Positions 12,181-33,028 of a stretch of DNA of 64,000 nucleotides are shown here, one piece after another. How positions within the stretch are numbered: the stretch's first letter is position 1; every line of letters starts with the position of its first letter. The notes below the pieces were generated by a model. The model saw only the letters and a program-made list of their open reading frames with translations, did no database searches and was not told where the DNA came from. Both the position numbers and the translations under genes were made by a program. This stretch comes from Halorussus halophilus (GTDB lineage: Archaea; Halobacteriota; Halobacteria; Halobacteriales; Haladaptataceae), in NCBI RefSeq assembly GCF_008831545.1, contig NZ_CP044523.1:2294001-2358000 (forward strand). Reading direction: 5' to 3'.

Positions 12181-12597
12181 GCGCCAGTGTCACCAGCAGT
12201 TTCTGGCGGTTGTTCGGCCGGGCGTTTCTGGTCGCAGGTGGCACCGAGCGTCTGCTAGTGGGTGGTTCCCAGTCGTCACTGCTCGGGTCCGACTACCGCT
12301 CTGAACATCCGGAAGACTCGCTTCGCTCGCCTTCCTTCCAGTGAAAGCGCGGCGCGCCCTGCGCGACGCGCGCTCACCAGTACCCGAGAAATCGAACAGG
12401 GAGTGTCTGGGAGCGCAGTCGCTCGCGGTGGCGCGACAGACTGCGCGCGACTCGTGGAACGGCGACACCACCGATTTCGCTGACCGTTCCACGGCGACAG
12501 TTAGAGCATGCCGCGAGGTGGCCGCGGCTCCGTATTTGAATCTGCGGGTGCGAAAACGGGAGAAAGCGAAGAGTAGTGCTAGACGGTCAGACAGACT
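12181..12597. other. Non-coding stretch rich in inverted repeats
   Basis: No convincing gene. Perfect short stems are visible: 12454-12462 with 12484-12492 (9 bases), and gcgcagtc at 12413-12420 with gactgcgc about 19 bases later. A GC-palindromic run (gcgcgccctgcgcgacgcgcgc) lies near 12351-12373. It sits downstream of tfb and upstream of nreA. It could be a decayed repeat element or a structured RNA; I do not recognise RNase P, SRP or tRNA features. Bases 11917-12052 hold the nreA upstream region. Confidence 0.4.
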
Positions 12598-20893: not shown

Positions 20894-21973
20894 CTAAATC
20901 AGGTCGTCCAACTGGTCGTTGCTGAACATCTCCGCGGGGTCCTCGCGTTCTTCTTCCTCTTCTTGGCTCGCCTTCTTCGCCCGCTCGATGAAGTCCTCGA
21001 CGCGCTGGGAGCGTTCGACGCCGCCGAGCAGGACGAGTGTGGCGAGACGGCCGCTGTCGAGTGGGAAGTCGCCGCCACGCACTTGGAGGCTTCCAGTCTC
21101 CTCTTCGAGCCACTTCCGCGAACGCTCGACGCCTTTCCGCGGAATCGACTCGGGTTGTCCGGCCACGACGAGCAATCCGGAGTCGGCGTCGATGGCGTTC
21201 GGCAGGCTGAGGTTGCTCAGTAGTGCCTTTCGCGTTGCGGAGGTAACCGTGTTGATGTTCTCTTCGGCGTCCTCACTGGCCTCTTCGGTGGCGAATCCGA
21301 GTGTGGCGATGCCGCCCGAGCGAAGCGTGTTGATGACTTCGCTGGAGTCCACGACGCTCTCGCCGACCCCTTCGATGGCCTCGCCAGAGGCGAAGAGCAA
21401 CCCGACTCGCTGGGCGATGTTCTGGTTGATTTTGTCGAACGCTTCGCCCATGCTCTCGCCGGAGGTGTGCCACGCGTCGTTGTCGATGAGGAGGGTCGCG
21501 TCGGCTTCTCGGACGAGCGTCTTCAGCGAGCGTCCGGCGTTGACTTGGTACATCGCACCCTCGCCGCGGCCGGGGAGGACGCCCAGTCCGTAGACGGGGA
21601 TGTCGTAGACGCGGTTCAGTTCGCGAGCGAGAACCGGCGCACCGCCCGACCCGGTACCGCCGCCGAGTCCGGCGACGACGAAGATAGCCTCTGCTTGGGC
21701 CGTGATGCGGCCGTCGAGCGCATCCATGACTTCCGTCGCGTCGTTCTGCATCACTTCCGCGCCGAGTTCGTTGTCACCGCCGACGCCGTGGCCCTTGACG
21801 CGGTCCTGTCCGACGAGCACCGTGTCGAGATCGAGTGCTGACAGGTCCGTCTCCGCGGAGTTAACTGCGAGTGCACCCTGTACCGCACCGAAGCCCATCT
21901 TCTGGTCGTACTCTGCCAACCGCTGGGTGAGTTTACCCCCTGCTTGTCCGACACCAATGAGGACGACTTTCAT
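20894..21973 (-). CDS. cetZ: CetZ, tubulin/FtsZ-superfamily cytoskeletal GTPase
   Basis: The protein has 359 residues. The tubulin signature AGLGGGTGSGG sits at about 101-111; the opening MKVVLIGVGQAGGKLTQRL and DRVKGHGVGGDNELGAEVM are typical of CetZ rather than FtsZ. CetZ proteins polymerise with GTP and control cell shape and motility in haloarchaea. The start at 21973 is set by the family N-terminus and by a TATA at 21993-22002. The C-terminus ends in an acidic tail and FSNDQLDDLI. It is transcribed divergently from the Tad-like cluster. Which paralogue it is cannot be told here. Confidence 0.93.
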   Translation of the reverse strand: MKVVLIGVGQAGGKLTQRLAEYDQKMGFGAVQGALAVNSAETDLSALDLDTVLVGQDRVKGHGVGGDNELGAEVMQNDATEVMDALDGRITAQAEAIFVVAGLGGGTGSGGAPVLARELNRVYDIPVYGLGVLPGRGEGAMYQVNAGRSLKTLVREADATLLIDNDAWHTSGESMGEAFDKINQNIAQRVGLLFASGEAIEGVGESVVDSSEVINTLRSGGIATLGFATEEASEDAEENINTVTSATRKALLSNLSLPNAIDADSGLLVVAGQPESIPRKGVERSRKWLEEETGSLQVRGGDFPLDSGRLATLVLLGGVERSQRVEDFIERAKKASQEEEEEREDPAEMFSNDQLDDLI

Positions 21974-22147: not shown

Positions 22148-22155
22148 TTTAAATA
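22148..22155 (+). promoter_or_regulatory. First promoter of the Tad-like cluster
   Basis: The sequence tttaaata is a near-consensus archaeal TATA box 31 bases before the ATG at 22179, so the transcript should be leaderless. It is the most TATA-like sequence near the cluster and divergent from the cetZ promoter. Confidence 0.65.
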
Positions 22156-22178
22156 GTAAGCCGAGACCAGCACGGGCT

Positions 22179-22625
22179 ATGCCGACTTCCGAATCACTCG
22201 ACGAGCGACTCCAAGCAGTCGAACGCGCACTCATCGACGCCGACACGAACACCGACCACGACCTGACGGCCCTCCGGGACGCCGCAGAAGTCGATGCGCA
22301 ACTCGCTGCGCACACCGAACGACTCGACACGCTCGAAGCGCGCGTCGAAGAACTGGAGGCCGCGACCCAAGCGCTCAGAGGCTACGTCGGGAACGTCAGG
22401 GCAGTCAACGACGCCGTGGAACGACGGGCGGACGCCGCGCTCGCCAAAGCCGAATCGGTGGAACAGGCGGTCGGTTCGACCGATTCCGAGGCGTTCGAGA
22501 TGGACTCGTTCCGGAGCGTCCAACGAGACACCGACCGCGAGCGCACCCCCGAAGCGGACGACGGCGAGGACATCTGCGAGGGCTCGGCGCGCGGCCTGCT
22601 CGCTCGCCTCGCCGGGGTCTCGTAG
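22179..22625 (+). CDS. Coiled-coil protein, first gene of the Tad-like cluster
   Basis: The protein has 148 acidic residues and no membrane segment. Residues 5-105 are almost entirely helical with heptad spacing (DAQLAAHTERLDTLEARVEE), then a polar linker and a C-terminal GSARGLLARLAGV. I recall related sequences as DUF7310. The role is unknown; as the cytoplasmic first gene of the cluster it could be an assembly or regulatory partner of the ATPase. It overlaps the next gene by 1 base. Confidence 0.7.
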   Translation: MPTSESLDERLQAVERALIDADTNTDHDLTALRDAAEVDAQLAAHTERLDTLEARVEELEAATQALRGYVGNVRAVNDAVERRADAALAKAESVEQAVGSTDSEAFEMDSFRSVQRDTDRERTPEADDGEDICEGSARGLLARLAGVS

Positions 22626-23104
22626 TGTTACGAACCGTTCTCGCTGTCGTCCTCGCAATCGTAATCGTCGGGGTCGTCTCCCCAGCATTCGAAGACGCGA
22701 GAATCGCGCGGAGCGAGAGCCAGACCGAAACCGAACTCGTACGCCTCCGAGTGGCCGCTACCGAACTCGCGCGCGAGCAGAACGTCGGCGCGCGCCGGAC
22801 GCTCGAACTCTCGGTTCCAGACGAATCTGTGACTCGCGCTTCGGTCGCCTTCGTGGCGCTCGGCGGCGTTCCAGACGGGCAAGCGGACACCGACACGCCA
22901 CACTCCGACCGACTCGCATATCGCGTCGAAGGGGGCGACACGCACGTCTTTCGTCTCCCGGTCGATCTGCTCGTCGCGGGTGAAAACCAAGCCAGCGATG
23001 CCAACGCGCTCGTCGTCCACGGCGGAACGGTTCGTCTGACTCTCCGACTAGTCCGCGACGGCGACAGACCAGTCGTCGCCGTCGAACACTCCGGTTCCCA
23101 GTAG
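22625..23104 (+). CDS. Single-pass membrane protein of the Tad-like cluster, pseudopilin-like
   Basis: The protein has 159 residues, with a GTG start overlapping the previous stop. The first 19 residues are a membrane helix (LRTVLAVVLAIVIVGVVSPA). A long charged helix (RSESQTETELVRLRVAATEL) and a beta-rich domain follow, the layout of a type IV pilin or minor pseudopilin lacking a classical leader. It is related to sequences I recall as DUF7311. Function unknown; membership in the pilus-like machine is inferred from position. Confidence 0.65.
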   Translation: MLRTVLAVVLAIVIVGVVSPAFEDARIARSESQTETELVRLRVAATELAREQNVGARRTLELSVPDESVTRASVAFVALGGVPDGQADTDTPHSDRLAYRVEGGDTHVFRLPVDLLVAGENQASDANALVVHGGTVRLTLRLVRDGDRPVVAVEHSGSQ

Positions 23105-23120
23105 TCGCTCGACCGCGCCC

Positions 23121-23156
23121 GGAGATTTATGACCGGAGACGGGACCAACCCGCGGC
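23121..23156 (+). promoter_or_regulatory. Internal promoter before the secretion ATPase gene
   Basis: The stretch from tttat (23126) to the ATG at 23157 aligns without gaps to the stretch before the gene at 26791. TATA-to-ATG spacing is 31 bases in both, and the last 15 bases (ccaacccgcggcatg) are identical. The simplest reading is a pair of matched leaderless promoters in the cluster. Confidence 0.55.
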
Positions 23157-25028
23157 ATGTCTCTGCTGTCGCGCTTCCGCGAGGGGCCGCCGAACTGCCG
23201 GTGTGTCCCCGCCTTCGAGAGCGACCGACTCCTCATCGACGCCAGCGACTGCCCCGGTTCTGGCGACCTCGCGGCCGCTACTGAGTGTCGTAACACTGCC
23301 GTCTCGGCGCTCGCAGACCGAGACGCCGAGGAAGTCGTCGTCCGAACGACCGGAGTCGAACGAGCCTACGAAGGCGATTCGGCGGCACTGCTGGTGTCTG
23401 CCGGTCGGTTCGCCGAGCGGGTCGCCTTCTACGACGCGACGCTGGCCGAGAGAGCGACGACCGACCCGCTCGGGGCTGCTCAGGCGGCCGTCGGCCGCGC
23501 TGGACCGGTAGGCGACGTCGCGGCCGAGACGGGGTTGGCGGACAGCATCCAGCAGTTCGAAGGGACGAACTACGACGACGCACTCGGCGCGCTCGTCGGG
23601 CCACGAATCGCTCGTGCTCGCGTCGCCGAGAGTCCGCCACGAGAAGCGACGCTGGAGGACGAGCGAACGCTCGACAGCGGCGCGACCGTCCGCGTCTACT
23701 CCTCGCCCGACCACGCGCTCCGTACCTACCACCTCGAACCAGTGGAGTTCGCGCTCGACGACGACGCGCTCACGACGCTCGCTCGCGCCTACGAGTTGCT
23801 GGCGGAGGGCGCAGTTTCGGGCGGCAACCGCGCGCCGGGTCGTGCAGTCCGACGAGTCGCCAGCGACTCGGACCCAATCGAAATACTCTCCTCGGCGCTC
23901 GAAAAGCACACTCGCGGCTTCGGCGTCTTCGCCGACTTCTTCGCAGATTCTACCGTCTCGGACGTGTTCGCCACCGCACCGGTCGGCCAGAACGCGCTCC
24001 GTGTCTCGGTGGCCGCCGAACGGATGCGGACGAACGTCAGACTCACCGACTCGGGGGCGGAGACGTTGGCCTCCCGACTCCGGCGTGCGAGCGGGAACGC
24101 GTTCTCTCGGGCCTCTCCGACGCTCGACGCCAGTGTCGAGACCGAAGGCGGCACCGTCAGAGTCGCCGCCGTCACCGACCCTGCTTGCGACGGCCCGGGG
24201 TTCACCTTTCGCGCCCACGACGAGTCGGCGTGGACACTTCCCGCGCTCGTCGCCAACGGAACCCTTCCGGCCGACGCGGCCGCACTGCTCTCGATTGCAG
24301 TCGAGCGTGCGGCTTCTGGACTCGTGGCCGGTACGCGCGGCGCTGGCAAGACGACGTTGCTGGGCGCACTACTCTGGGAACTCCCCGCGGAGACCCGAAC
24401 GGTCTGCATCGAAGACACGCCGGAACTACCGATTGGGGCACTCCAACAGCACGGCCGCGACACGCAACCGCTCCGCGCGACGACCGACGGCGGTCCCCGC
24501 CTCGCGCCCGCCGAAGCACTGCGAACCGCGCTCAGACTCGGTGAGGGCGCGCTGGTCGTCGGCGAAGTCCGGGGTGAAGAGGCGGCCGTCCTCTACGAAG
24601 CCATGCGAGTCGGTGCGAGCGGGAGCGCGGTGCTGGGAACCATCCACGGCGACGGCGCAGAAGCGGTCCGCGAACGCGTCGTCTCGGACCTCGGCGTCCC
24701 CGAAACCGCTTTCGCCGCCACGGACCTCGTGGTCACGCTGGAACCCGTAGAGGACGGCAAGCGCGTCACAACCATCGAGGAAGTCGTCGCTCCCGACCGG
24801 TTCCAGTCGCTGTTCGAGTCGCGAGACGGTACACTCGAACCGACCGGCAGAATCGACCGCGGCAACAGCGAACTGGTCGCCGACCTCGCGCGGAGTGGGG
24901 AGTCATACGCCGACGTACGGCAGGCGCTCGAATCACGTGAGCGACTGCTCTCGACGCTCGCAGACGAGGAGCGAACCAGTTGCGCCGACGTGGTGAGCGC
25001 GTACGCGAGTCGTGGGAGGGACGCGTGA
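23157..25028 (+). CDS. Type II/IV secretion ATPase (GspE/VirB11/TadA type)
   Basis: The protein has 623 residues. The first 190 or so are a region of unknown fold. The C-terminal motor has Walker A GTRGAGKTT (Lys398), an Asp box (CIEDTPELP), Walker B-like LVVGEVRGEEAAVLYEAM and a His box (LGTIHGDGAEAVRERV). Such hexameric ATPases power assembly of pili or secretion pseudopili from the cytoplasmic face of the membrane. The organisation with a TadC-type partner downstream fits the Tad/archaellum branch. The stop overlaps the start of the next gene by 4 bases. Confidence 0.9.
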   Translation: MSLLSRFREGPPNCRCVPAFESDRLLIDASDCPGSGDLAAATECRNTAVSALADRDAEEVVVRTTGVERAYEGDSAALLVSAGRFAERVAFYDATLAERATTDPLGAAQAAVGRAGPVGDVAAETGLADSIQQFEGTNYDDALGALVGPRIARARVAESPPREATLEDERTLDSGATVRVYSSPDHALRTYHLEPVEFALDDDALTTLARAYELLAEGAVSGGNRAPGRAVRRVASDSDPIEILSSALEKHTRGFGVFADFFADSTVSDVFATAPVGQNALRVSVAAERMRTNVRLTDSGAETLASRLRRASGNAFSRASPTLDASVETEGGTVRVAAVTDPACDGPGFTFRAHDESAWTLPALVANGTLPADAAALLSIAVERAASGLVAGTRGAGKTTLLGALLWELPAETRTVCIEDTPELPIGALQQHGRDTQPLRATTDGGPRLAPAEALRTALRLGEGALVVGEVRGEEAAVLYEAMRVGASGSAVLGTIHGDGAEAVRERVVSDLGVPETAFAATDLVVTLEPVEDGKRVTTIEEVVAPDRFQSLFESRDGTLEPTGRIDRGNSELVADLARSGESYADVRQALESRERLLSTLADEERTSCADVVSAYASRGRDA

Positions 25029-26758
25029 AGCGGACTCACGCGACTGCGAAGGTCGTCTCCGCACTCGCTTCGTGGTGGCCGTTGCCAGTCGAACCGAGCG
25101 CGGATCTCGTCCGCGCGTTGGCGTTTCTGGGCGCGAGTATCGACGCTCGAAGCCTCCTTCGAGCGAGTAACGTCGTCGCTACGGCGGTCGCTCTGGTCGG
25201 AATCCTCCCCGTTCTCCTCGCGCCTCCCTCGATTCGCCTCGTGGCCGTCGCGACGACGCTCGCGCTCTCGTTCGCCATCGCTCACGTCGCGCGCCGCGGT
25301 CCACTCCTGCTCGCTACGGCACGGCGAACCAGCGCGCTCGGAACCGCGCCAGCAGTGCTCGGCCGAGCGGTCCTGCGGATGCGAATCGAACCGGCCAGCG
25401 AGCGAGCGGCGGCCTTTGCTGCTCGCACCGGGTCGGGACCACTCGCCGCGAGTTTGCGGGACCACGTCCGGCGAGCGGACGGAACACCGCGCTCGGGTCT
25501 CGCCGACTTCGGGGCGACGTGGGCCGACTGGAACCCACCGCTTCGCCGTGCGACGCTCCTCGTGGAAGCGGCCGCGGACGCGCCTGCCGGTGAGCGCGGT
25601 CGAACGCTGGACCGCGCGACGACCGCCATCGTGGAGGGCACCCGCGACCGCATGGCGACCTTCGCCGAGGACATTCACGGCCCGACGACTGCGTTGTACG
25701 CCTTCGGTGTCCTGCTCCCGCTTGCACTCGTCGCGGTCCTACCGGCGGCGCGCGTGGCTGGTCTGGCGCTCTCGACGCCCGTGCTGGTCGCGCTCTACGA
25801 CGTGCTGTTGCCGCTCGTCCTCGTCGGTGCGAGTGCGTGGCTGCTCGTCCGACGCCCGGCGGCGTTTCCGCCGCCGGCCGTCTCCTCGTCCCACCCCGAC
25901 GTGCCCGACCAGCGGTGGCCAGTGCTTCTCGGTGGCGTCGTCGTCGGAGCTTGTGCGTTCACCCTCGTTTCGGTGGCTCCGCTTCCGGCGTGGTCGCGCT
26001 GGCTGGCGGCGATTGGTGCAGGCTGTGGAACCGTCCTTCTGGGCTGGTTTCGTCCGGTCAAGCAGGTCCGTGACCACGCCCGAGCGGTCGAATCGAATCT
26101 GACTGACGCGCTCTACCACGTCGGTCGTCGCGTCGAGGAGGGCCGCGCAGTCGAGGGAGCACTCGCCGACGCCGCGGCGGAGGTTGCGGGCGAAACTGGC
26201 GAGACGCTCGACGCTGCCGTCGGCGTCCAGCGGCGGTTGCGACTGAGCGTCCGCGACTCCTTTCTCGGCGAGTACGGCGCGCTCGCGGACGTGCCGAGTC
26301 CGCAGGCTCGAAGCGTGGCTCACTTGCTCGCGGTCACTGCGCGCGAGGGACGCCCGGCCGGTCGGGCCGTCGTGACGATGGCTGACCACATAGACGACCT
26401 CCAGCGCGTCGAGCGCGACGCGCGGCGCGAACTCACTCGCGTGACCGGAACCTTGCGAAACACGGCGGCCGTCTTCGCGCCGCTGGTCGGTGGCGCGACG
26501 GTGGCGCTCGCGGAGGGGATGGCCGCACCGGAGGGGAGTACCGGTACGCAGTCACTCGCAACCCCGCTCCCGGCCGACGCGCTCGGTCTCGCTGTCGGCG
26601 CGTACGTCCTGCTGCTCGCGGTGATTCTCACCGCACTTGCGACTGGCTTGGAGCGCGGTCTCGACCGCGCGCTCGTGGGCTACCGCGTCGGACTCGCACT
26701 GCCGACGGCGACGACGACCTACCTCGCGGCGTTCGTCGGCGCAGGATTGCTCACGTAG
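25025..26758 (+). CDS. Type II secretion F-domain membrane platform (TadC/FlaJ type)
   Basis: The protein has 577 residues with about eight membrane segments in three groups. Cytoplasmic T2SSF-like helical regions lie at about 120-210 and 360-480, the second with the FlaJ-like stretch ADHIDDLQRVERDARRELTR before the last membrane group. This is the integral platform on which the ATPase acts. The start is the GTG at 25025 that forms a GTGA overlap with the ATPase stop; an upstream ATG at 24980 would overlap the ATPase by 49 bases and is less likely. Confidence 0.85.
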   Translation: MKRTHATAKVVSALASWWPLPVEPSADLVRALAFLGASIDARSLLRASNVVATAVALVGILPVLLAPPSIRLVAVATTLALSFAIAHVARRGPLLLATARRTSALGTAPAVLGRAVLRMRIEPASERAAAFAARTGSGPLAASLRDHVRRADGTPRSGLADFGATWADWNPPLRRATLLVEAAADAPAGERGRTLDRATTAIVEGTRDRMATFAEDIHGPTTALYAFGVLLPLALVAVLPAARVAGLALSTPVLVALYDVLLPLVLVGASAWLLVRRPAAFPPPAVSSSHPDVPDQRWPVLLGGVVVGACAFTLVSVAPLPAWSRWLAAIGAGCGTVLLGWFRPVKQVRDHARAVESNLTDALYHVGRRVEEGRAVEGALADAAAEVAGETGETLDAAVGVQRRLRLSVRDSFLGEYGALADVPSPQARSVAHLLAVTAREGRPAGRAVVTMADHIDDLQRVERDARRELTRVTGTLRNTAAVFAPLVGGATVALAEGMAAPEGSTGTQSLATPLPADALGLAVGAYVLLLAVILTALATGLERGLDRALVGYRVGLALPTATTTYLAAFVGAGLLT

Positions 26759-26790
26759 CTTTAAGTCCGAAGCCGGGGCCAACCCGCGGC
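26755..26790 (+). promoter_or_regulatory. Second internal promoter of the Tad-like cluster
   Basis: The sequence tttaag at 26760-26765 is 31 bases before the ATG at 26791. The whole stretch matches the one before 23157, with the last 15 bases identical. It lies at the junction between the platform gene and the block of small membrane proteins. Confidence 0.55.
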
Positions 26791-27255
26791 ATGTTCGACG
26801 CGCCCGTCGATGCGTGGTACGTCTGGCTCGGAGTCGCCCTCGCAAGCACCACTGCCTTCGGACTCGCGGCCTCGCTCCCCGACGAACCGCCGCCGGACGC
26901 CGCGGGTGTCGCGGCAACTGTGGACGCCGTGGCCGCGAGTCAGCACGCGACGACTGCGACACACCCACTCGGCGCTGACGCTGTCAAACTCGCCCCAAAT
27001 CGCGTCGCGCTCAGAGCGGATGGGACAGTCGCGCACGCCACTTTCGCCTACGGACCAGTGGTGCCTGTCGTCCCCGGCTCTGGGCTCTGGGAGGTGCTTC
27101 GCGGGACGCCGCCTGACCATGCATTTAGCTCGTCTGCCGAGTTCCGCCACTCGGTCGAGTCGGCCAGAGAGCGCCCCGCTTCGTGGCGAGCGTGCGAGGA
27201 ACTGACCGTGCGGACTGTCTCGTGGGAGGGGGTCGATGTCACGCTGGTCGGCTGA
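26791..27255 (+). CDS. Single-pass membrane protein of the Tad-like cluster
   Basis: The protein has 154 residues. After eight residues comes one membrane helix (AWYVWLGVALASTTAFGLAA), then a domain outside the membrane with AGVAATVDAVAASQHATTAT, beta strands, and WRACEELTVRTVSWEGVDV. I recall the family as DUF7283, restricted to haloarchaea. Pilin-like topology suggests a minor pseudopilin or an assembly component. It has its own promoter and overlaps the next gene by 20 bases. Confidence 0.7.
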   Translation: MFDAPVDAWYVWLGVALASTTAFGLAASLPDEPPPDAAGVAATVDAVAASQHATTATHPLGADAVKLAPNRVALRADGTVAHATFAYGPVVPVVPGSGLWEVLRGTPPDHAFSSSAEFRHSVESARERPASWRACEELTVRTVSWEGVDVTLVG

Positions 27256-27664
27256 GTCCGAGCGCAGACCCGGCGGGTCTGACGAGTCCGGACAGGTCGA
27301 ACCGCTCGCCGCGCTCGTCGCCGTCTTCGCGGTCGGGGTGGCGCTGAGTGCCTACGCAGGGGTCCTTTCCGACGCACTCCCGACGCCAGAGCGGAACGTC
27401 GCAGAGCCGACGGCACACCGCGCACTGGCCGAAGTTCGCGTCGGCGCAGTCGTCTCTCCGGAGCGACTCCAGGCGGGAATCTTGGCTGCACCGGAGGGTT
27501 ACGACTGCAACCTTACGCTCACTGCGGCGGGCAGCACGTGGCACGCGGGGCCGCCGGTTCCCGAGCGAAAGTTCGAGACCGATACCGCCACCCGAACTGC
27601 GAGCGTTCGGGTCGCGCCCGGCCACGTCCGGCCGGGGACGCTTCGCGTGGTGGTCTGGTCGTGA
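27236..27664 (+). CDS. TadE/pseudopilin-like membrane protein
   Basis: The protein has 142 residues. A short polar N-terminus ends in DESGQVEPLAALVAVFAVGV, a Gly-x-x-Glu entry into the membrane helix (about 22-43) that resembles TadE/TadF and pilin helices where Glu lies at position +5. The outer domain contains YDCNLTLTAAGSTWHAGPP and ends VRPGTLRVVVWS. I recall it as DUF7285. The start overlaps the previous gene by 20 bases and the stop overlaps the next start by 4, so expression is tightly coupled. Confidence 0.7.
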   Translation: MSRWSAESERRPGGSDESGQVEPLAALVAVFAVGVALSAYAGVLSDALPTPERNVAEPTAHRALAEVRVGAVVSPERLQAGILAAPEGYDCNLTLTAAGSTWHAGPPVPERKFETDTATRTASVRVAPGHVRPGTLRVVVWS

Positions 27665-28536
27665 GGGCCATCAGTACCGTCCTCGACGTGTCGCTCTGTC
27701 TGCTACTCGTCGCCGCGAGCGCGACGACGCTCGCCGGTGTTCCGCTCCAGAAATCGGGGGGCTCGAACGCGCACTCGGCAGAAGCGACCGCCACGCTCGT
27801 GGCGACGAATACGGCGTCGGTCTCGTACGCACTCGGTGAGAACAGAACAGACGGCAACGTCTCAACAGTCCACGACACGCTCGCTGGCCTGCTGGCAACT
27901 GTCGCCGTGGCGAGTAGCGAAGTGGATGCCGACTCCGAAGAAGTCGCGCTTTACCCCGAAACCGACGAATTCCGTGAGAACGCGACCCAAGCGGTCGCTC
28001 GTGGCCTCCGACGCTCAGAAGTTCCCTCACACGTTCAGGTCGTCGCTCGGTGGAAACCGTACGCTGGCGCAGCAATCCGTGGGCGTGCAGTAGCAGGTTC
28101 GACACCACCACCACGCGCGGACGTGCGTGCCGCGACGTTTACCGTGCCGAGTGGATTCCCCACCGAGCGTGCAGACGCAGTGACTGCGGCCCACGCAGAC
28201 GGCTACAGCGGCGTCGCGCACGTCCTCGCTCGGGGTCTCGTCGCCGGGTGGTTTCCGGGCAACGGGACCGCCTTGCGCGACGACACTGCTCTCCGCAACG
28301 AAACCGCCGCGCGCTATCGACGCGTCGCCGAAGCATACGACACAAGCGTCGAAGACGGACTTTCGGCCAACGTTTCGCGCGCCACGGACGTTTCCCAAGC
28401 AAACCGCAACCTCGTCCGCGCGCTCGCCGCCGACGTCGAACCGCGCCTCCGAGAGCGGTTCGACTCGCCGCAGGCGGCCGCTCGCGCAGTCTCTGTGGGT
28501 CGAGTCAGCATCACCGTCAGGACGTGGTCGGCGTGA
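27661..28536 (+). CDS. Pilin-like N-terminus protein with large outer domain
   Basis: The protein has 291 residues, with a GTG start in a 4-base overlap with the previous stop. The N-terminus MRAISTVLDVSLCLLLVAAS resembles the R-A-V-S-P-V-I-G-V opening of haloarchaeal type IV pilins, here with the helix directly at the start. A domain of about 260 residues outside the membrane follows, with several N-x-S/T sequons (ENRTDGNVSTV, RNETAARY, LSANVSRATDVS). I recall it as DUF7284. It is probably a surface-exposed part of the machine. Confidence 0.7.
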   Translation: MRAISTVLDVSLCLLLVAASATTLAGVPLQKSGGSNAHSAEATATLVATNTASVSYALGENRTDGNVSTVHDTLAGLLATVAVASSEVDADSEEVALYPETDEFRENATQAVARGLRRSEVPSHVQVVARWKPYAGAAIRGRAVAGSTPPPRADVRAATFTVPSGFPTERADAVTAAHADGYSGVAHVLARGLVAGWFPGNGTALRDDTALRNETAARYRRVAEAYDTSVEDGLSANVSRATDVSQANRNLVRALAADVEPRLRERFDSPQAAARAVSVGRVSITVRTWSA

Positions 28537-28564
28537 GGTGCGGGACGAACGGCAGGAGGCCCCG

Positions 28565-31500
28565 ATGAAACTCGCCGAAGACGAGCGCGGCCGGATCCCG
28601 TTCGCACTCGTCGGCGTCCTGCTGCTCGTGACCAGTGCCACGCTCAGCGTAACGCTCACGGCCTCGCCCGAACCACAGGTAGACCGCTCGGTCGGTGAGG
28701 CGGTCGAACGGGCGACTGCGGCAAGCAACACCGCACTCCGCGGGGCCGTCTCGCGGGCCGGACGGCGCGCGGCCAGCGCGCCGGTGACGGCGACGGCGAA
28801 CACCACCTTCGGTGCAGTCGTCAACGACTCGACGCCGTACCGCGACGCGCTCCGCATCCGCATCTATCTCGCGGCACGGGAGGCTCTGGGTAGCGTCTCG
28901 GCACGCGCCGCGGGCGTCGAAGCGTCGGCGTCGCTTCCGGCGACGCCGAACGCGAGTGCGCTTCGGGCCGCCAAGCGGCGGGTCCACGTCGAGCGGACTG
29001 GTGAGCGCGGCGCGTCCGGGCTTCGAGTCACCATCGAGAACGTCACCGTCACTGCGAGCAAGTCCGAGCGAATTGCCGAACAAACAACCTACTCGCCGAC
29101 GCTGACTGTCGCCAGCCCTGCGCTCGCGCTCCACGAGCGAACCGAACGATTCGAGACGAGACTGAACCATGGGCCGCTCAGCCCCGGACTCGGTCGCAGA
29201 CTCACCGCGAGCCTCTACCCTGTGGCGTGGGCGCGTGGCTACGCCCACTACGGCAGGGCCCCCATCGAGAACGTCGTGGCGAATAGGCACGTCGCACTCG
29301 TTACGAACGGAGCGATTCTGCGCGAACAGCGGCGTGTCTTCGGCCGCACGGACCCGGCCGGACGCCGCGCGCTCGGATGGGCGACGGTTCGCGTCGGCAC
29401 CACCGACCTCGTGGAAGCGACTCACACCGAGCGCGCGAGTCGTTGGACCAACCTTCTGCTGGAAGCCGCCAAGAAGAACACGCAGTCAGCACCCCTGATG
29501 AGCGGGAAATCCAGACAGACCGGGACACAGACGCCACTCCGCGTCGGCGTCAATCGAACTGCCGACCGAGCGTACCTCGGGGTACTCTCCGACTCTAACC
29601 TCTCGTCGATCCTCGAAACCGCCTACGGTGCGGAGGTGCGGCTCCACGCCGCGGTTCGCCCGGAACGAATCGAGCAGCAACCGACGCCGCGACCGCCGGG
29701 CGAAAACTGGACGAAGGCGAACGAGCGCGTCCGAACGACGGTTCGAGTTACGGACGCGAGCGCGCCGGTTCCCGGGACGACTTCGGGATGGCATCGGCTA
29801 CAGAGCGCGACGCGTGAGGTCGTCCAGCGGCATTCGCTGGTAGTCGAGTGGGAGCGAAGCGCGGACGTGGAGGGGAAAAACAACGAGACGCGACGAACCG
29901 TCTCGCGCTGGACCGAGACGTACCGTGTCGGCGTCCTGTTGGCTGGCAACCACCGGTCGGTCGCAGGTCCTGTTAATGTCCCGACCCGCCAAATCGTGGG
30001 CGTCCACCAGCGGGGCGGCCCGCTCGACGGGCCGAACCTCCGAGACGTGCGCGCGCTGGCCGCGGAGCGACTCGTCACGAATCGCGGTGGCTTCGACCGA
30101 CTCGCCGAGCGCGCAGTCCTCGGTACGCTCGACACACGCCCAGTCACCGTCTCTGGCCGCCATCCTGTCGAACTCAAACCATGGGTCGTCGCAGACCTGC
30201 GTTCGTTGCGCAAACGCGTCCGGAACGTCACCGTCGCAGTCCCGCGGCGGAAGGTGGCGACCGGCGACGCGAATCCGGCGGCCGAACTCGCACAGAAGCT
30301 CGAAAGTCGCCGAGAGGCACTGATGGACGCACCAGCGAGCTACGACGGCGTAGCCGACCGAGCGCGAGTTACGGTGCGCGCGGCCTATCTCGACCGGGTG
30401 ATTCGGCGACTCCACGCTCGTGGAAATCGAGAGAAGCGCCTGAACCGCGGCGTGGACGACGTGTTAACCGAGGCCGGACTCTCCGCGGAGCGAATCCAGC
30501 GAATCGCGAGCTCGAAAGCTGGCGTCGAGACGCCGTCACAGAAACCGATGCCAGCGGCAGGTCCCGGCCGGTCGGCGAACCTGAGCGTCGATGGCGCGCC
30601 ACCGTATCTCACGCTATCGCCCATCGACCACGAGCAGGTCGCCGCAGTTCCGGCGGGCGACCGGCGGTATCCGCTCGCGGCGCGCAACGTGAACCTGTTC
30701 ACGGTTCCCTACGCCGACGCTGCCGACACGGCGATTGGATTGCTCGACGGCACGAGAAGCAACCAGCGAACCGACTTGCAGTCGGCCGCGCTCTCGCTCC
30801 GGGCGGCCAACCGGACGCTGGCCGAGAAGCAGAACGAAACGCTGGCTGAGAACCGGGACGCGCTTCAACGCTCGCTCGCTGGCTCGCTGGACGCCGTTCG
30901 ACGGCGACTCGCCGCGCGCCTCGCGGACAGAGACGACCGGCGGTCGGCGGCGGCCTACCGAGACATCGTCGATGCGGGACTCACGCGCTGGAACACCACG
31001 ACAGCACAGACACTGGCAGTGACGAACGGGTCGGCAGCCGACGCAATTGTGGCCGAGTTGGTCCGACGGGAATCGACTTCGAAACCGTCGATTCGAGCGG
31101 AACGAGTCGAACTCCGCGTTCGGTTCGCACTCGAAGCGACCCGCAAACACGTCGATGGCCCGCGCCAGTCGCTGGTCGGGCAGACGAGCAAGAAGGCTCG
31201 CTGGGTCGCTCGCGAAGAGGTCAAGCGCGTCGTCGGCGACACGGTCGCGAACGCTACCAAGCGCGGTGCCGACCGCATCAAAGACCGCTGGTTCGGGAAG
31301 GTGCTATCGGACGTTCACGCCGGACTACCAGTCGCGCCGGTCCCGGGGTACTGGTACGCGACGGCGAACGTCTGGCACGTCGAGGTGAAGGGCGGGTACG
31401 CGAAGTTCACGGTTCGCACACCGCAGGGGTCGCCACTCGAAACGGGTAGCAGCGACCGCGGCGTGACCTACGTTCGCAAGACTGGGCGCGTCCGAATCGA

Positions 31501-31663
31501 CGTTGACGACGACGGAGACCGGGAGGTTCTGGGTCGAACGACGCCAGTCTCGTTCGAGACGAGTACTGTCGTCGTGGTCGTCGTACCGCCCGGTCCGCCC
31601 GGCGTCGGCGACACCGACGGCGACGCCGACGAGCGGTCGCCGGGGTGGTCGGCCAAACGGTAA
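28565..31663 (+). CDS. Giant TadG-like surface protein of the cluster
   Basis: The protein has 1032 residues, the largest in the window. After DERGRIP comes one membrane helix (about 11-31). The rest is outside: helical Arg/Ala-rich segments, many N-x-S/T sequons, and near the end VAPVPGYWYATANVWHVEVK. It closes with TSTVVVVVVPPGPPGVGDTD and a polar tail. An N-terminal helix plus a very large outer domain recalls TadG. I recall it as DUF7286. The ATG at 28565 has a Shine-Dalgarno (ggagg) 10 bases before it; an in-frame GTG at 28538 is the alternative. Confidence 0.7.
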   Translation: MKLAEDERGRIPFALVGVLLLVTSATLSVTLTASPEPQVDRSVGEAVERATAASNTALRGAVSRAGRRAASAPVTATANTTFGAVVNDSTPYRDALRIRIYLAAREALGSVSARAAGVEASASLPATPNASALRAAKRRVHVERTGERGASGLRVTIENVTVTASKSERIAEQTTYSPTLTVASPALALHERTERFETRLNHGPLSPGLGRRLTASLYPVAWARGYAHYGRAPIENVVANRHVALVTNGAILREQRRVFGRTDPAGRRALGWATVRVGTTDLVEATHTERASRWTNLLLEAAKKNTQSAPLMSGKSRQTGTQTPLRVGVNRTADRAYLGVLSDSNLSSILETAYGAEVRLHAAVRPERIEQQPTPRPPGENWTKANERVRTTVRVTDASAPVPGTTSGWHRLQSATREVVQRHSLVVEWERSADVEGKNNETRRTVSRWTETYRVGVLLAGNHRSVAGPVNVPTRQIVGVHQRGGPLDGPNLRDVRALAAERLVTNRGGFDRLAERAVLGTLDTRPVTVSGRHPVELKPWVVADLRSLRKRVRNVTVAVPRRKVATGDANPAAELAQKLESRREALMDAPASYDGVADRARVTVRAAYLDRVIRRLHARGNREKRLNRGVDDVLTEAGLSAERIQRIASSKAGVETPSQKPMPAAGPGRSANLSVDGAPPYLTLSPIDHEQVAAVPAGDRRYPLAARNVNLFTVPYADAADTAIGLLDGTRSNQRTDLQSAALSLRAANRTLAEKQNETLAENRDALQRSLAGSLDAVRRRLAARLADRDDRRSAAAYRDIVDAGLTRWNTTTAQTLAVTNGSAADAIVAELVRRESTSKPSIRAERVELRVRFALEATRKHVDGPRQSLVGQTSKKARWVAREEVKRVVGDTVANATKRGADRIKDRWFGKVLSDVHAGLPVAPVPGYWYATANVWHVEVKGGYAKFTVRTPQGSPLETGSSDRGVTYVRKTGRVRIDVDDDGDREVLGRTTPVSFETSTVVVVVVPPGPPGVGDTDGDADERSPGWSAKR

Positions 31664-31701: not shown

Positions 31702-32133
31702 ATGCTCTACGACGAAGTCGCCGACCCCGAGGAGACGACGCCCGAGGAACTCCGCCAGAACTACGAGTCTGAACTGGCCGAAATAGTCGAGACGGTCGGC
31801 GTCGAAGCCGCCGCCGAGGAGAGTGGCGTCGAACGGAAGAAACTCGACGCACTCGTCGCGGGCGAGTCGCCGCGACTGCTACTCGAAGACGCGGCGGCGA
31901 TTTTCGCCCTCCGAGAGGACGCCCCGGCGAAAGACGACATCCTACTGGAGACCCGCGACCACCTGATGATGGGGATGACGACGGCCATCCTCGACGTGGA
32001 CACCATCGCGGCCGAACTCGACTCCGGCATGGACAGCAAGGAGATTCAACAGAAGATAGAGGGTCGGATGGCGATGCCACTGGAGCAGTTCGCGCTCGTC
32101 CAGCACTTCATCGCCAGCAGAAGCGGGATGTAG
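31702..32133 (+). CDS. DUF5791-type protein
   Basis: The protein has 143 acidic residues, mostly helical and soluble. VGVEAAAEESGVERKKLDAL looks like a small HTH-like unit, then LLLEDAAAIFALREDAPAKD and METRDHLMMGM-type helices. It matches a haloarchaeal family I recall as DUF5791, function unknown. The gene starts 38 bases after the giant cluster protein; the epimerase gene begins 1 base after its stop, so these two are co-transcribed. The ATG at 31702 is preferred over one at 31645 that would overlap the previous gene. Confidence 0.75.
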   Translation: MLYDEVADPEETTPEELRQNYESELAEIVETVGVEAAAEESGVERKKLDALVAGESPRLLLEDAAAIFALREDAPAKDDILLETRDHLMMGMTTAILDVDTIAAELDSGMDSKEIQQKIEGRMAMPLEQFALVQHFIASRSGM

Positions 32134-32134
32134 T

Positions 32135-33028
32135 ATGAACGTCGTTATTCTCGGTTGTGGCTACGTCGGTCTCGAACTCGGCCGTCAGTTGACCGACGCT
32201 GGTCACCGAGCAGTCGGCGTTCGCCGGTCTTCGGACGGTATCGACGCCATCGAGGACGCAGGCTTCGACGCCGTGCAGGCCGACGTGACCGACGCCGATT
32301 CGTTGGAAGCGGTACCGGACGCCGACCACGTCGTCTTCGCGGCCAGTTCCGGCGGCCGGGACGCCGCGGCCGCCCGCGAGGTGTACGTCGAGGGGCTTCG
32401 AACCGCAATCGAGGCGTTCGGCGTACGCGAGAACTCCCCCGAGCGATTCGTCTACACGTCCAGCACCGGCGTCTACGGCGACCACGGCGGCGACTGGGTG
32501 GACGAGGCGACGCCGTTGGAACCGACGACTGAGAAGACCGAGGTTCTCGTGGAGGCCGAGCAAGTGGCCCGAGAGGAGCCTCCCGAGTGGGGAATCGACG
32601 GCACTGTCGCGCGCCTCGCGGGTATCTACGGACCCGATAGGACGCGGCTTGAGCGATATCTGGACGGCCCGGTGACTGAGGGCTATCTGAACATGATACA
32701 CCGCGACGACGCCGCGGGCGCGATTCGATTCCTGTTGGAGCGAGACCTCGCGCGCGGCGAAGTCGTGCTGGTCGTGGACGACGAACCGGTCTCGAAGTGG
32801 ACGTTCGCTGATTGGTTGGCCGACGAGTGTGGCGTGGCGCGACCAGCGAAGCAGACTACCGAAGAGCGACTCGCGGACGAGGGCCTCTCAGAGCGCGTTC
32901 GTCGGCGACTGCTGACGAGCAAACGCTGTTCGAACGAGCGGCTTCGGTCTCTCGGATACGAGTTCACTTATCCGACATACAAAGCGGGTTACCGGACCGC
33001 TATCGACGCTTACGTCGGGCAACGTTAG
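32135..33028 (+). CDS. NAD(P)-dependent sugar epimerase-like SDR (YeeZ type)
   Basis: The protein has 297 residues. It opens with the dinucleotide motif ILGCGYVGLELG. The extended-SDR active site is recognisable as YTSSTGVYGDHGGDWVDE, followed by ARLAGIYGPDRTRL. Related proteins are epimerases or reductases acting on nucleotide sugars or other small molecules in the cytoplasm; the substrate is not predictable. In the usual YxxxK position the sequence reads TEKTEVLVEAEQ with no clear Tyr, as in YeeZ-like relatives. It is co-transcribed with the DUF5791-type gene. Confidence 0.83.
   Translation: MNVVILGCGYVGLELGRQLTDAGHRAVGVRRSSDGIDAIEDAGFDAVQADVTDADSLEAVPDADHVVFAASSGGRDAAAAREVYVEGLRTAIEAFGVRENSPERFVYTSSTGVYGDHGGDWVDEATPLEPTTEKTEVLVEAEQVAREEPPEWGIDGTVARLAGIYGPDRTRLERYLDGPVTEGYLNMIHRDDAAGAIRFLLERDLARGEVVLVVDDEPVSKWTFADWLADECGVARPAKQTTEERLADEGLSERVRRRLLTSKRCSNERLRSLGYEFTYPTYKAGYRTAIDAYVGQR

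Follow-up and report, generated by a model that had tools for sequence, protein, structure and literature searches.

An eight-gene locus in a 64-kb stretch of the Halorussus halophilus genome (hereafter the window, whose positions serve as coordinates throughout) almost certainly encodes a type IV pilus-type machine, judged by its ATPase, its platform and several single-pass subunits. Its three promoters carry a common sequence element, and in unrelated genomes this element recurs in front of genes for DNA-handling proteins and of the gene for a TctA-like membrane protein. The locus is therefore likely to encode a pilus that captures DNA for a competence (DNA-uptake) system of haloarchaea that works without ComEC. 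That a dedicated competence regulon of this kind extends across most of the Halobacteria, with a palindromic element controlling the pilus, a TctA channel, a HerA pump, a NucS-like single-strand binder, a nuclease, MinD and small RNAs, is a proposal that we favour by a small degree.

Three promoters of the pilus locus share an element

The eight open reading frames lie on the plus strand with overlaps of 1, 4, 20 and 4 bases, as described in an earlier note made from this DNA, and are interspersed with three promoters:

22148..22181, plus strand: promoter 1, TATA box and shared element TTTAAATAGTAAGCCGAGACCAGCACGGGCTATG; position weight matrix (PWM) score 27.8
22179..22625, plus strand: DUF7310, coiled coil (Pfam, 100 bits)
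22625..23104, plus strand: DUF7311, one N-terminal membrane helix (Pfam)
23126..23159, plus strand: promoter 2, TATA box and shared element TTTATGACCGGAGACGGGACCAACCCGCGGCATG; PWM score 27.5
23157..25028, plus strand: PilB2-type secretion/pilus ATPase (T2SSE); Cys 14, 16, 32 and 44, Walker A K398
25025..26758, plus strand: PilC2/TadC-type membrane platform; T2SSF in 15 of 25 orthologues
26760..26793, plus strand: promoter 3, TATA box and shared element TTTAAGTCCGAAGCCGGGGCCAACCCGCGGCATG; PWM score 30.9
26791..27255, plus strand: DUF7283, one membrane helix, no class III signal (Pfam, 180 bits)
27236..27664, plus strand: DUF7285, putative pilin-like subunit; class III motif in 76 of 80 orthologues
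27661..28536, plus strand: DUF7284, single-pass subunit with N-terminus RAISTVLD (Pfam, 240 bits)
28565..31663, plus strand: DUF7286, giant subunit with pilin-like leader RG-RIPFALVGVLLL (Pfam, 1139 bits)

The reading frame of DUF7286 opens at 28538, and the ATG at 28565 is the likelier, conserved start.

TATA-like hexamers were found some 30 nt upstream of the start codon of DUF7310 (26/71), the ATPase (33/72) and DUF7283 (68/80), and none were found before the internal genes of the locus. Therefore, the locus probably consists of three transcription units. After each of the three TATA boxes the shared element was observed, with the arrangement TTtA-N10-CGGGACCA-about 9 nt-ATG; the copies in the window are CGAGACCAGCACGGGCT, CGGGACCAACCCGCGGC and CGGGGCCAACCCGCGGC. 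Directly upstream of the ATG its consensus reads acGGGaCCA..CCGgcCC, which often forms the inverted repeat GGG-ACCAA-CCC. With the TATA box and the ATG so near each other, leaderless transcripts are probable. The element would probably be located between the TATA box and the transcription start site, where it may serve as an operator.

A PWM was trained on the locus promoters alone and compared with a background of 2440 starts, for which the 99% quantile was 4.6 and of which 8 reached a score of 10. None of the internal genes of the locus scored above the threshold, and the same was observed for the starts of the neighbouring genes cetZ (0/55), DUF5791 (0/71) and the epimerase (0/70). Because of this result for cetZ, cetZ2 was rejected as a member of the control group. 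In this genome, no site above 10 was present at the loci for the archaellum, PilB3 or PilB4, and in the window strong sites were restricted to the three locus promoters and to position 12509 on the minus strand.

Genes that share the element

A first version of the element pattern gave 30 matches in 59 Halobacteria genomes and a second version gave 68 matches in 44 genomes, with one match each when the pattern was run backward as a control. In the present genome, the pattern identified the three locus promoters and a few other genes. The list of genes is derived from these pattern searches and is accordingly incomplete. In unrelated genomes, DUF7382, NucS_N/Zn-ribbon, DUF7857, a PLD nuclease, a HerA-like ATPase, TctA and the locus itself were repeatedly found downstream of the element. 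DUF7382 proteins combine an R-A-IEGLPIRLVIALVVG leader with an Ig-like domain, which makes them candidates for a stand-alone pilin. The NucS_N protein also carries topoisomerase Zn-ribbon domains, and the PLD-family nuclease is predicted to be secreted. DUF7857 has the element upstream in loci L223, L257, L339 and L346, and a MinD gene follows it in both loci inspected (L223/L307 and L257).

Short sequences of the form ATG-NNN-stop with a hairpin behind them also recur after the element. In these candidate small RNAs the ATG-NNN-stop precedes a GC-rich hairpin, and a 3' box resembling GTCGCCTGTCAGCCC looks, by eye, able to pair with the loop of the hairpin in several members; no Rfam match was obtained for them. 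One is located in the window at about 12509-12400 on the minus strand, others in loci L244, L258, L256, L249, L319, L321 and L338, and further copies in L340-L344, L347, L348, L352 and L354, with several per genome in some cases. Small uncharacterised proteins behind the element (L118:2905-3270, minus strand; L349; L355) are possible further members of the regulon.

Archaeal-type tctA genes carry the element

In a transposon screen of Methanococcus maripaludis, transformation required a type IV pilus (T4P)-like pilus, an operon of MinD and a partner, an OB-fold protein, a TctA-like protein with 11 helices, a nuclease and an archaeosortase, and the TctA homologue was required for transformation in Methanoculleus as well (PMC10133366). 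Archaea are without ComEC (PMC10133366). Likewise, ComEC (PF03772) was above the cut-off in 0/39 haloarchaeal genomes and was rejected as a member of the regulon. Because the methanogen screen requires TctA and ComEC is absent, the tctA genes were collected by protein family and not by the element pattern. All 34 starts of archaeal-type tctA, a gene predicted beforehand from the methanogen screen, scored above the 99% quantile, with a minimum of 10.9 and a score of 29.7 in the present genome; the best start near the N-terminus was scored, which is somewhat favourable, and 31 of the 34 were ATG starts. For bacterial-type tctA, 0/5 exceeded the quantile.

Among the highest-scoring background starts, four belonged to DUF7382 and two to MinD-like genes; they came from loci of another haloarchaeal family, f4, that had been fetched for another reason. 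In six f4 loci (L176, L177, L181, L182, L184 and L188) a HerA-like gene, in L176 with a DUF87 match of 36 bits, is located directly upstream of DUF7310. DUF7382 stands divergently beside HerA in 5 of these 6 loci, and MinD-DUF7125 lies within a few kb in 2. As the f4 loci place these genes together, the pilus, HerA, DUF7382 and MinD are linked both by position and by promoter.

The machine belongs to a pilus type already catalogued

The earlier note had proposed a type IV filament-type machine composed of a GspE/VirB11-type ATPase, a TadC/FlaJ-type platform and single-pass proteins, and each of these components was recovered. The ATPase matched T2SSE with 69.9 bits (cut-off 24.9), has the proposed Walker A lysine (K398, in GTRGAGKTT) and is closest to the solved structures of Archaeoglobus GspE, CpaF and FlaI. 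For the platform, the window protein had no Pfam match of its own and hhalign against its three paralogues of the same genome was not significant; a Pfam scan of each orthologue was used instead and gave T2SSF matches in 15/25, the best at 6e-7. DUF7311, DUF7283, DUF7285, DUF7284 and DUF7286 each have one N-terminal membrane helix.

The note had also called the function unknown. A role is indeed unassigned, but the locus was already catalogued as subclade 4F, or as the PilB2-PilC2 pilus beside cetZ2. Makarova, Koonin and Albers (2016) listed subclade 4F of the archaeal T4P without a function, with a halobacteria-specific coiled-coil protein, a Cys-rich ATPase N-terminus, an S-layer-like protein, an FtsZ-like neighbour and arCOG02981 as the likely major pilin (PMC4858521). 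Brown and Duggin (2023) described a pilB2/C2 regulon adjoining cetZ2, arCOG04674 and arCOG03095 and left its role open (PMC9856176). The present locus matches these descriptions: it has the Cys-rich ATPase, the TadC-type platform, the coiled coil, several putative pilins, a large surface-type protein, the corresponding gene order, the FtsZ-like cetZ neighbour and flanking genes for a predicted transcription factor and an epimerase. On gene content and neighbours it is therefore assigned to subclade 4F / PilB2-C2. Legerme and Pohlschroder (2019) placed PilB2 in clade 4C and not in 4F. From the published descriptions, DUF7310 is probably arCOG07564 of Makarova et al. (PMC4858521), DUF5791 probably arCOG04674, a predicted transcription factor, and the epimerase-like protein probably arCOG03095 (PMC9856176).

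The papers on subclade 4F / PilB2-C2 give no function, promoter structure or regulon, and the links to DUF7382, TctA, HerA, NucS_N and PLD are new here; a literature search by the DUF numbers of the locus families returned no papers. The locus itself was known in silico; as far as searches of open papers reach, neither its function nor the promoter element nor the gene set had been described.

The 4.45-Mb genome encodes four machines of this kind: the archaellum, assigned by the content and order of its genes, a PilB3-type locus with PilB3_N/C domains, a PilB4-type locus with DUF7287/7288/7289, and the present locus. The earlier note was right that no prepilin peptidase lies in the cluster, but a single one (Peptidase_A24) is encoded elsewhere in the genome, at C1:3443425, so that its absence from the cluster means little.

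Pilin-like signals of the subunits

A class-III-like motif, defined as [KR][GA] before an uncharged helix, was scored in 80 orthologues, which are not independent of one another, and in 205 control proteins whose N-terminus has a hydrophobic stretch. It was present in 76/80 DUF7285 and 73/80 DUF7286 orthologues compared to 15/205 controls, and in 0/80 orthologues of DUF7283. The DUF7285 protein of the window departs from the motif, with S-G where R-G or R-A is expected. The claim of the earlier note that the cluster lacks a pilin with a classical leader is partly wrong, since class-III-like signals are present in the orthologues of DUF7285 and DUF7286. DUF7284 starts with RAISTVLD in many, though not all, orthologues.

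DUF7285 has its C-terminal domain in common with DUF7287, a protein of the PilB4-type pilus (hhalign probability 95, E 2.7e-8; at most 0.5 for column-shuffled controls). This homology supports a putative pilin fold of DUF7285. Its AlphaFold model (pLDDT 88) shows an N-terminal helix followed by an alpha/beta head and had no Foldseek match in the PDB below E 0.001; a uS3-like match (E 0.018) was put down to a resemblance in topology only. DUF7286 was modelled as a large mixed protein (pLDDT 80), again with no Foldseek match in the PDB below E 0.001, and is a candidate tip or envelope subunit. Comparison with the PDB at the level of sequence profiles gave nothing convincing for DUF7285, DUF7284, DUF7286, DUF7311 or the platform, and the matches of DUF7284 to uL16 (E 0.007) and of DUF7311 to PilE1 (E 0.86) were dismissed. 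The C-terminus of DUF7286 carries the nearly invariant motif VVVVPPG..GVGD.DG.ADE, which might bind metal.

Apart from the domain common to DUF7285 and DUF7287, the subunits of the haloarchaeal PilB4-C4 pilus (DUF7287, DUF7288, DUF7289) were unrelated to those of the present locus by hhalign, and the shared promoter element is absent there.

Conservation and neighbourhood of the locus

DUF7286 was present in 299/391 Halobacteria genomes and in 66/86 genera. In the synteny check proposed in the earlier note, gene order was conserved: all eight genes were found in order in 68 of 80 named loci, and the DUF7283-7285-7284-7286 block in all 80, which argues that the arrangement did not arise by chance. 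The expectation that the small subunits are restricted to haloarchaea did not hold, since DUF7286 and DUF7284 also match in Methanosarcina acetivorans and are thus not strictly haloarchaeal. A divergent cetZ was located upstream in 50/80 named loci, with DUF5791 and the epimerase downstream of the pilus genes. The corresponding features of the window, together with the fourth copy of the element, are:

20894..21973, minus strand: cetZ2 (tubulin-like), divergent neighbour of the locus (Pfam CetZ_C, 222 bits)
31702..32133, plus strand: DUF5791, cetZ2-linked neighbour without the shared element (Pfam, 164 bits)
32135..33028, plus strand: NAD-dependent epimerase-like protein, cetZ2-linked neighbour without the shared element
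12507..12540, minus strand: fourth occurrence of the shared element in the window, upstream of a small-RNA candidate; PWM score 26.1

The closest solved chain to the CetZ protein was 4b45 (516 bits, compared to 334 for 4b46); these are the H. volcanii proteins CetZ2 and CetZ1, respectively, as named in PMC9856176.

Some loci are rearranged. In some Halorussus relatives (L089, L090, L091 and L093), the pilus locus is split into the movable blocks cetZ2-DUF7310-DUF7311, ATPase-platform and DUF7283-7285-7284-7286, which correspond to the three promoters. In L185, DUF7286-7284-7285 is retained and DUF7283, the platform and the ATPase are replaced by two cetZ genes. In L176, L177, L178, L182, L184 and L188 of the f4 family, DUF7286 is divergent, the flanks are without DUF5791 and the epimerase, and HerA, DUF7382 or MinD adjoin the pilus genes in their place.

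Discussion

The filament or cargo of the machine, which the earlier note could not name, is narrowed by the shared promoter element, which points to DNA. In the proposed mechanism, one promoter element would turn on all these genes jointly, and their products would cooperate on DNA as substrate. The single prepilin peptidase would cleave the pilin-like subunits, namely DUF7285, DUF7284, the giant DUF7286 and the DUF7382 protein, which is encoded on its own elsewhere, and the ATPase and platform would polymerise them into a short filament able to bind DNA outside the cell. Trimming of the captured DNA would fall to the secreted PLD-family nuclease; the DNA would enter through the archaeal TctA-like membrane protein, a channel replacing ComEC, while the HerA-like ATPase pulls it inward. 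Incoming single strands would be handled by the NucS_N/Zn-ribbon protein and MinD-type proteins would position the machine.

Transformation in M. maripaludis and Methanoculleus thermophilus resembles this proposal in its T4P-like pilus, its TctA-like protein, its pair of MinD and a hypothetical protein, its nuclease and its lack of ComEC (PMC10133366). However, the methanogen pilus is of the Epd type (clade 1) and not 4F, and no counterpart of the OB-fold protein was detected in the haloarchaeal set, which has a NucS_N/Zn-ribbon protein and a HerA-like ATPase in its stead and is tied together by a shared promoter element. The system would also work like the competence pili of bacteria, in which a type IV filament is co-regulated with DNA-import genes, but the haloarchaea differ in having neither ComEC over the cut-off (39 genomes) nor homologous minor pilins.

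Several observations weigh against uptake of DNA. The lack of ComEC is one of them, and natural transformation of haloarchaea by a dedicated machine was not shown in the open literature searched, nor was a regulator of the shared element identified. In genomes without DUF7286 (e.g. G004, G020, G034, G043 and G044) the element and tctA persist, so that the regulon does not strictly require the pilus; these genomes would need another pilus or another use of the regulon. Haloarchaeal TctA was likened to MMJJ_13030 by one shared Pfam family. The small RNAs and a uridine phosphorylase behind the element have no obvious role in DNA uptake. Moreover, DUF7382, NucS_N, PLD and DUF7857 emerged as recurrent through the pattern itself, and the members found independently of it are only TctA and a few f4 neighbours.

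The locus could alternatively encode an adhesion or surface-sensing pilus, the element being a broad switch tied to growth phase or surface, which happens to drive DNA-related genes as well. Indeed, PilB1-C1 and PilB3-C3 of H. volcanii act in adhesion (PMC6491452), Makarova et al. (2016) model 4F like adhesion pili, and the large DUF7286 could be an adhesin. This is nevertheless unlikely, as the element is missing from the PilB3-C3 adhesion system, the PilB4 locus and the archaellum in this genome, and the co-controlled set consists mostly of candidates for DNA handling or DNA import. DNA might also be moved from cell to cell, as by the UV-inducible Ups pili and the Ced importer of Sulfolobales, with pili drawing the cells together and the HerA-like and TctA-like proteins importing DNA of a partner. 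A pilus, a HerA-family ATPase and a multi-pass membrane protein under common control would suit such exchange, and the HerA-like protein weakly matches the CedD model (1.5e-5, below the cut-off). Haloarchaea do exchange DNA via bridges (PMC7838353), but mating in Haloferax is described there as a matter of bridge formation and a continuous cytoplasm. TctA, furthermore, is tied to transformation with free DNA in two methanogens (PMC10133366), and cetZ2 is down at most time points of mating (PMC7749143), although cetZ2 itself is without the element. Taken together, we regard exchange as quite improbable. Even less can be said for a type II secretion-like or Tad-like protein exporter with DUF7286 as cargo or tip. 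It would agree with an ATPase closest to the GspE/CpaF structures and the TadA model and with many single-pass subunits, one of them very large, but except for the PLD nuclease no secretome-type cargo was linked to the locus by neighbourhood or element, and the DUF7286 orthologues retain a pilin-like leader; such an exporter is considered very improbable.

Haloarchaea exchange genes frequently and grow on extracellular DNA. To our knowledge, no DNA-uptake machine or dedicated genes have been identified in them. If the locus is the DNA-capture pilus proposed here, the element supplies a concrete list of genes for uptake, comprising pilus, channel, motor, DNA binder, nuclease, positioning proteins and small RNAs. 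It would also add a second archaeal lineage in support of the proposed role of TctA-like proteins as DNA transporters in archaea. In addition, it suggests what a pilus listed in 2016 with no function attached may do, and bears on the question of how archaea import DNA without ComEC.

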